Positions 8,113 to 8,758 of a DNA stretch of 10,422 bases are shown in pieces. The stretch is from the NCBI GenBank assembly GCA_937919795.1, contig CALFOA010000036.1:1-10422 (forward strand), written 5' to 3'. The position numbers and the translations under genes are program-made. A model generated the notes under the pieces. That model saw nothing but the letters and a program-made list of their open reading frames with translations. It was not told the origin of the DNA and ran no database searches. The number at the start of each line of letters is the position of its first letter. Within the stretch, counting starts at the first letter, position 1. This stretch comes from an uncultured Neisseria sp. (lineage in GTDB: Bacteria; Pseudomonadota; Gammaproteobacteria; Burkholderiales; Neisseriaceae).

Positions 8113-8149
8113 AAGTAAACTTGATTTTGTTACAAAATCAAGTTTACTT
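8113..8149. promoter_or_regulatory. Perfect 17-bp palindrome abutting umuD: probable operator/promoter
   Basis: Arms AAGTAAACTTGATTTTG and CAAAATCAAGTTTACTT are perfectly complementary around a TTA spacer, ending three bases before the umuD start. A possible -35 (TTGATT, 8121-8126) lies in the left arm and a weak -10 (TTTACT, 8143-8148) in the right arm, so an occupying repressor would shut the promoter and transcription would begin almost at the ATG. No T-run follows, so it is not a terminator. The palindrome is certain; the operator role is inferred from position. Confidence 0.75.
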
Positions 8150-8152
8150 ATC

Positions 8153-8758
8153 ATGACCACCTCCAAGCCTTCTTATGGCGGTCGCCGCCCCGGTGCTGGC
8201 CGTAAATCGAAAAGCGGCAAAACCGTGGTAAAGCGTATCCCCGAATCACTGGTTCCCGCCGTCGATGCTTTAATCGAGCACGCGGTCATTCTCACGCAAA
8301 ACCCGGCAGGCTCGCTGCCGCCGGGCGCATTGCTTTTTCCGGAATCATTCTCCAGTCTTTCCATACCCATCGCCGGTGAAAAAATTCCGGCAGGCTTCCC
8401 CTCACCGGCGGAGCAGTATGTCGAAGATTTTATCGACTTCAATTCATTTCTCATTATCAACCCCGCCGCCACCTTTGCCGTCCGCTCGGGCGGACAGTCC
8501 ATGCTTGATGCGGGCATCGATGTGGATGACCTGCTGATTATCGACCGCTCTGTAACACCGCGGCACCGCGATATTGTAATGGCCGACCTCGGCAACGAGT
8601 TCACCATTAAGCGGCTTCATAAAATTGACGGTAAACCCATTGAGTTACGCTCTGAAAATGCCGCCGGTGGCTTCCCCGATTTCATCCCTGCCGACGGTGA
8701 TACCTGGTCTATTGTCGGTGTGGTGCTGCACATCATTAAAAGCACGCGGAAACCTTAA
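8153..8758 (+). CDS. umuD: Long UmuD-like self-cleaving protein with N-terminal DNA-binding-like extension
   Basis: A 201-residue protein, against about 139 for E. coli UmuD. Residues 81-201 are a full S24/LexA-type domain: cleavage site A80-G81 (IPAGFPSPAEQYVE), nucleophile S116 (GGQSMLDAGI) and K153 (FTIKRLH). The 35- and 37-residue spacings equal those of UmuD. The first 80 residues are additional: GGRRPGAGRK (9-18) is AT-hook-like, and VVKRIPESLVPAVDALIE (25-42) looks like a ribbon-helix-helix strand and helix. RecA-stimulated cleavage should release UmuD' for polymerase V. By analogy with the long Acinetobacter UmuDAb it may also repress its own operon. The start lacks a Shine-Dalgarno sequence. 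The stop lies one base before umuC. Confidence 0.9.
   Translation: MTTSKPSYGGRRPGAGRKSKSGKTVVKRIPESLVPAVDALIEHAVILTQNPAGSLPPGALLFPESFSSLSIPIAGEKIPAGFPSPAEQYVEDFIDFNSFLIINPAATFAVRSGGQSMLDAGIDVDDLLIIDRSVTPRHRDIVMADLGNEFTIKRLHKIDGKPIELRSENAAGGFPDFIPADGDTWSIVGVVLHIIKSTRKP

Follow-up and report, generated by a model that had tools for sequence, protein, structure and literature searches.

The window analysed here, a stretch of 10,422 nucleotides, encodes a long UmuD which, judging from its sequence features, very probably represses its own umuDC promoter while uncleaved, and whose RecA-stimulated cleavage would relieve that repression. The umuD gene (8153..8758, + strand) specifies a 201-aa S24 peptidase and is followed, one base after its stop codon, by umuC (8760..10010, + strand), encoding a 416-aa Y-family polymerase with IMS, IMS_C and DUF4113 domains in Pfam, the IMS domains lying within 8760-10007. 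On a wider scale, UmuDAb is probably no invention of Acinetobacter but a derived representative of a group of long UmuDs that repress their own genes, occur across the class Gammaproteobacteria (GTDB), Neisseriaceae included, and carry an undescribed DNA-binding domain and TTGATT-N7..11-AATCAA operators; in many of them the subunit of the polymerase would itself be the repressor, with no LexA involved.

Directly 5' of umuD stands a perfect 37-bp palindrome (8113..8149, no strand assigned), composed of 18-nt arms at 8113-8130 and 8132-8149 with one base between them, and 3 bp separate its end from the umuD ATG. It was the sole inverted repeat listed for 7800-8400. An earlier examination of the letters alone (the sequence-only reading) had described a perfect palindrome of 17 bp at this place; its perfection was confirmed, while its length had to be corrected to 37 bp. 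The symmetry is not a chance product, since the RNA fold of 8105-8175 reached -17.5 kcal/mol with a z of -6.6, and 0 of 200 shuffles equalled it. Inside the palindrome, the predicted 21-bp operator core TTGATTTTGTTACAAAATCAA (8121..8141, no strand assigned) matches TTGA-N4-GTnAC-N4-TCAA with zero mismatches and represents the only TTGA-N13-TCAA within the window. This pattern was defined by experiment as the UmuDAb operator of A. baumannii in 2024, and the authors call it unique to Acinetobacter (PMC11332147). The exact fit bears out the suggestion of the sequence-only reading that UmuDAb is a precedent for a long UmuD with TTGA...TCAA operator ends. The identical 21-mer was found to precede umuD on a plasmid from Acinetobacter sp. 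ANC 7970 (L048), and a search of the viral contigs for a 31-bp form of the window palindrome returned 0 cases. At the left operator edge, TAAACT (8116..8121, + strand) is a weak -10-like hexamer that scores 7/12 together with its -35 and is a candidate only; the promoter scan of the window did not list it. By reading, no Shine-Dalgarno-like sequence was seen in 8142-8152, between the palindrome and the ATG, so the start codon of umuD or its mode of translation may be unusual.

The cleavage machinery of the encoded protein appears complete. The Ala-Gly cut site and the Ser-Lys dyad of the S24 domain are intact, with A80-G81 (codons at 8390..8395), S116 (8498..8500) and K153 (8609..8611, all + strand) at the positions claimed beforehand. 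The intervals of 36 and 37 residues are also those of E. coli UmuD, for which the cleavage and catalytic residues are C24, S60 and K97, as the claim of exact UmuD spacing had it. Peptidase_S24 (residues 73-191) was the sole Pfam domain detected, with nothing else up to E 1 and with LexA_DNA_bind, the winged-helix N-terminal domain of LexA, absent. The protein scored 120.5 bits against NF007621, the NCBI family model for UmuD (cut-off 110), and 58.8 bits against the LexA model TIGR00498, under its cut-off of 110.95. It shares the S24 C-terminal domain and the cleavage logic with LexA but differs from it in the missing LexA_DNA_bind domain and in its operator. The C-terminal domain is common to the E. 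coli protein (E 5.4e-24 to UmuD', 1umu), and a Foldseek search with the model of the window UmuD matched UmuD' and LexA, with UmuD/UmuD' among the best matches. In E. coli, as in the window, umuD forms an operon with umuC, and the E. coli umuDC operon is repressed by LexA. Unlike E. coli UmuD, which has about 24 residues before the cut, the window UmuD has 80, with a predicted DNA-binding domain among them.

The N-terminal domain would comprise a basic GGxRxGAGRK arm, an extended stretch and a single helix, as far as the structure model indicates. The arm corresponds to GGRRPGAGRK at residues 9-18 (8177..8206, + strand), where the sequence-only reading had placed an AT-hook-like segment, and we take the GGxRxGAGRK motif to resemble an AT-hook. 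In the AlphaFold2 monomer model, built on 86 sequences, a well-defined C-terminal part was accompanied by a loose basic arm, an extended stretch and one predicted helix at residues 31-49 (8243..8299, + strand), whose 10-residue blocks reached pLDDT 93 and 76. No second helix was present before the cut site in this model, in which confidence is low at residues 51-90. Of the ribbon-helix-helix-like segment proposed earlier, no more than half would thus be present, the monomer model showing an extended stretch and one helix. For UmuDAb, the published view, based on modelling, is a LexA-like helix-turn-helix (PMC4807011, PMC11332147). As the model of the window UmuD holds one helix, it supports no helix-turn-helix and no complete ribbon-helix-helix, although a monomer prediction of partly low confidence cannot decide the matter. 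The helix-turn-helix contrast drawn in the sequence-only reading leans on the published UmuDAb prediction, a fold absent from the model of its relative in the window. Comparison of the N-terminal part with Pfam and PDB families gave no significant match; a weak sigma-factor hit (E 0.16) was considered as a relative and taken as chance. Residues G9, R12, G16 and R17 are invariant in alignments A1 and A2, partly by construction, because that motif was the criterion for choosing all members other than the window protein and UmuDAb. As an unselected figure, a GGxRxGAGR-type motif was present in 110 of the 120 best relatives listed.

UmuDAb itself was identified in NZ_CP077849.1, an A. baumannii chromosome filed as a plasmid, which contains three sites of TTGA-N4-GTnAC-N4-TCAA. 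Site TTGAAAATGTAACTTTTTCAA precedes a 203-aa UmuD relative showing the published UmuDAb residues E24, K40, A83, N100 and G124, with N at position 41 versus R in the A. baylyi paper; a divergent 78-aa frame beside it has the published size of DdrR. The second site stands, by eye, before a UmuC-like frame, and the third is TTGATCAAGTGACATCTTCAA. Other routes to UmuDAb were discarded: the class-level genome candidates looked at were LexAs or short UmuDs, the protein was not recognised among the best 120 in the protein clusters, and two plasmid "S24 family peptidases" turned out to be another variant. UmuDAb starts with MPKKKEFEHGGARENAGRKAQFNEPTKVIRVPESQVNFIKNWL and aligns with the window UmuD from residue 7, with 76 of 199 positions identical (38%), including a common domain of the form GGxRxxAGRK ... 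EPTKVIRVPES .... The two proteins are therefore alike in the N-terminal domain, the S24 cleavage residues and a 21-bp operator before their own gene. The idea that the window UmuD has a DNA-binding part unlike that of UmuDAb and built separately has to be given up, given the same domain, this identity and a common clade in the tree described below.

Published experiments describe UmuDAb as the repressor of its regulon, which binds its own box specifically and needs its N-terminal domain for repression (PMC4807011, PMC11332147), and full repression requires the corepressor DdrR (PMC11332147, PMC7273328). The surroundings of the two genes differ. UmuDAb is divergent from ddrR and runs its regulon with DdrR according to these papers, and no umuC was found within 847 bp behind its gene, whereas in the window umuC directly follows umuD and there is no DdrR relative. 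Among 353 sequences, the window included, DdrR relatives were detected only in L269 and L271, which represent one A. baumannii place. Two further groups of regulators, FddR of Francisella and LexA-like repressors of Bacteroidetes, are likewise S24 proteins with palindromic operators, in bacteria that lack LexA; unlike the window UmuD, they are phage-repressor-like, use other operators (including GTG-N11-CAC) and are not UmuD-derived (PMC13148647, PMC8565304).

For the survey in the NEISSERIACEAE, 83 genomes were taken from the family to which G004, a Neisseria sicca genome, belongs. A UmuD relative was found in 22 of them, at 23 places, and at 16 of these TTGA-N13-TCAA occurs no more than 45 bp upstream of umuD. 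Among the remaining places, L019 and L021 have one arm mismatch, L038 carries a 22-bp variant, and L037, L039, L040 and L041 either have no box or are degraded or truncated. The umuD box of Snodgrassella is TTGATTAAATAACTTAATCAA, with the core ATAAC and not GTnAC. The exact GTnAC pattern was detected in 19 of the 83 genomes (against a background of 51 genomes with any exact match among 398 sampled from the phylum) and stands at umuD in five of them, G016, G017, G018, G019 and G063. In all of these except G019, which has one extra site, it is the single exact box of the genome, and the long UmuD is the only relative found there; in most Snodgrassella genomes, the exact-pattern sites lie elsewhere. 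LexA_DNA_bind (PF01726) exceeded its cut-off in none of the 83 genomes, with weak matches below the cut-off in four, in agreement with the remark of the sequence-only reading that Neisseriaceae are not known for a classical LexA circuit. LexA is likewise absent from the genus Acinetobacter according to published work.

Some further observations were made in this family. In a single Neisseriaceae MAG (L010/L037), the GGARAGAGRK arm of UmuD is lost and the box has drifted to ATGATTGAATAATTTAATCAA, which is what parallel decay of domain and operator would produce. The Snodgrassella loci L012, L013, L015, L016 and L018 contain, at about 2700-2980, 21-bp palindromes TTGATTnnGTTACnnAATCAA, with a GTTGC core in L018, which by eye seem to lie at gene 3' ends. 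A terminator-like CCACTC..GAGTGG hairpin adjoins them in L012, L013, L016 and L018, and half of it is present in L015. Because the umuD box there has another core, TTGATTnnGTTACnnAATCAA may represent a repeat with no relation to it, or a second role of the site. Two such palindromes in L014 (2794-2814 and 4760-4780) surround genes that by eye are phage-recombination-like, with a presumed single-strand-binding-protein-like frame between them.

Motif-bearing long UmuDs were found throughout the class sample (the class of G004 being Gammaproteobacteria in GTDB). When arms were scored in a non-redundant set as at least 10 of the 12 bases of TTGATT...AATCAA within 100 bp upstream, they preceded 29 of 41 long UmuDs and none of 19 short ones (Fisher 8e-8), a count in which near copies were merged by shared 4-mers, loci with truncated or damaged starts (L010, L037, L039, L041, L051, L068 and L071) were left out, and the short set takes in L067, with a long but diverged N-terminal part, and rows with an uncertain start codon. 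The palindromes that the sequence-only reading had proposed to look for upstream of other long umuD homologues are present in this proportion. Since some of these loci had already been inspected when the arm rule was fixed, a later-fetched subset and a distal-window control were used. Among loci retrieved once the pattern had been recognised, the arms stood at 4 of 8 long versus 0 of 15 short UmuDs (P 0.008), and equally high scores were reached in 20 of 380 distal windows taken from the long loci. Outside Neisseriaceae and Acinetobacter, arms were observed at 17 of 28 long UmuDs. The boxes of the long UmuDs measure 21 bp (13), 22 bp (7), 23 bp (7), 19 bp (1) and 20 bp (1), and promoter hexamers (-35/-10, at least 9/12) stand at the left box edge in 12 of 29, versus 1.4% of other anchors. 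Upstream regions are more AT-rich in long UmuDs (34% GC, versus 45% in short ones), and LexA boxes with at least 7 of 8 bases were found at 1 of 41 long and 4 of 19 short UmuDs. The window excluded, umuC follows in 24 of the 32 long loci that could be judged and does not in 8, with 8 more loci too short. Of the 27 tested class-sample genomes that have a long UmuD, 8 encode LexA, versus 218 of 342 others (P 0.0008), a comparison that includes incomplete genomes, counts G621 as long (its UmuD, L067, stands in the short set of the arm count) and keeps G004 and G533 among the others despite their long UmuDs, that of G533 being cut off.

In the viral contigs, 80 loci were reduced to 17 non-redundant rows by dropping those with little upstream sequence, those too short and near copies. 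The box is present at 7 of 8 long rows, L304 being doubtful by position and spacing, and at 8 of 9 short rows, all eight with exact GTnAC. These short viral UmuDs resemble Acinetobacter UmuDs, and two of them group with Acinetobacter rows in the tree; since they are Acinetobacter-like and UmuDAb acts in trans according to published work, their box is no sign of self-control. In L135-L212 (viral contigs), L318 and L296, loci chosen in part by pattern, the UmuDs measure about 165 aa and have no GGxRxGAGR arm, and their exact UmuDAb-type boxes, about 35 bp upstream, fit control in trans by UmuDAb.

The tree was built from 68 C-terminal domains over 127 columns, without L020, L038, L040, L104 and L102, whose cut site is unlike the pattern, and many of its forks remain open. 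One clade of 18 rows (100/95) unites six Neisseriaceae rows, the Acinetobacter plasmid UmuDs, UmuDAb and five long and two short viral UmuDs; within it, support for grouping UmuDAb with the Acinetobacter rows is moderate (91/84). At deeper levels the two forms, long and short, are mixed, and the long label requires 9 changes, at least 4 of them forced by well-supported branches, so the long form is not one lineage. From this clade and the shared domain, the ancestor of UmuDAb was most likely a UmuD with the domain already in place, and the short members of the clade would have lost it. A published proposal has umuDAb possibly originating through acquisition of a DNA-binding part; this origin is disfavoured, because the Acinetobacter plasmid and Neisseriaceae UmuDs already have that part.

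In the proposed mechanism, a dimer of the uncleaved 201-aa UmuD would bind the 21-bp box at 8121-8141 through residues ~1-50 and block transcription of the operon. DNA damage would load RecA, which would stimulate cleavage of UmuD at A80-G81; the cut would separate the DNA-binding part from the dimerising part, and the promoter would open. Since umuC lies in the same operon, the same cut may well also leave a polymerase-active UmuD' (residues 81-201), the form working with UmuC, and a single cut would then induce the genes and activate the enzyme together. The intact cleavage residues, an N-terminal domain in common with UmuDAb, an operator of the UmuDAb type, the recurrence of the box at many long UmuDs and the adjacency of umuC are read from sequence; dimerisation, binding, repression, RecA-dependent cleavage and the dual role are what we infer.

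Self-repression has to be weighed against control of the operon in trans by another host repressor, UmuDAb-like or phage-type, with the long N-terminus serving another role. Several Acinetobacter umuDC operons are indeed under UmuDAb control in trans (PMC3978071, PMC11332147), and the exact boxes at 8 of the 9 short viral rows, which have no GG.R..AGR motif, mean that a box does not prove binding by the product of its own gene. Other points against self-repression are the 12 of 41 long UmuDs that miss the arm threshold, the 8 of 32 long loci in which no umuC follows, the weak promoter match of the window together with the missing Shine-Dalgarno-like sequence, the scattered position of the long form in the tree, the need of UmuDAb for DdrR, the higher AT content upstream of long UmuDs and the reported absence of an SOS-like system in N. 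gonorrhoeae. We nevertheless consider control in trans unlikely, since G016, G017, G018 and G063 hold one UmuD relative and one exact box, at its own gene; class-wide, the box goes with the domain; and the Pfam scan of nine window proteins revealed no second UmuD or LexA relative. In another reading, the domain tethers the polymerase to DNA without sequence specificity, and something else binds the operators. This would agree with the AT-hook-like look of the motif and with the lack of a match to known DNA-binding families, but it is highly improbable given that UmuDAb carries this domain too, shows specific binding to its box and depends on its N-terminus for repression (PMC4807011, PMC11332147).

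The palindrome could instead act as an RNA hairpin, either as terminator of the resolvase gene or in translational control of umuD, and its very stable RNA fold and its position between the resolvase (ending at 8083) and umuD, 3 bp before the start, speak for this. Against termination, no T-run follows the palindrome and the terminator scan did not list it. More generally, the GTnAC core, which pairing alone would leave unfixed, recurs in Neisseriaceae and Acinetobacter (Snodgrassella having ATAAC), and in 12 of 29 long loci a -10-like hexamer at the left box edge would place the transcription start inside the box, so that the left arm would not be fully transcribed. A hairpin function therefore appears very unlikely, and self-repression through the box is the reading we prefer.

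A mobile element is suggested by the genes 5' of umuD, which code for the resolvase, a zeta-like toxin and a toxin-antitoxin pair of FitA/PIN type. The genes for the FitA-like antitoxin and PIN-domain toxin lie in 4673-6841, with the zeta-toxin-like gene at 5945-6841. Positions 1-932 of the window hold an IS3-family transposase stretch with 90.5% identity to the E. coli plasmid NZ_CP147087.1.

UmuDAb has been treated as a Moraxellaceae case of convergent evolution (PMC8565304), and other Moraxellaceae are said to be without a umuD homologue (PMC3978071), whereas our list of relatives includes a UmuD relative named Moraxella catarrhalis. In the available literature on UmuDAb and UmuD, consisting mostly of papers outside subscription, operators or domains of the UmuDAb type were not seen described for any bacteria but Acinetobacter, and no papers were found on UmuD in Snodgrassella. 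The present results extend to Neisseriaceae an operator core called unique to Acinetobacter (PMC11332147). An SOS-like system has been reported absent in N. gonorrhoeae, as cited in PMC3135505, and the same paper calls a regulated SOS response in LexA-less Neisseriaceae and their kin a matter in need of study. If the proposed mechanism is true, one RecA-triggered cut both induces and activates a mutagenic polymerase with no LexA needed, and a mobile operon that carries such a damage switch along would be expected to function wherever the host has a suitable RecA. The long UmuDs thus offer a concrete candidate for regulated mutagenic polymerase genes in the LexA-less Neisseriaceae and their kin.
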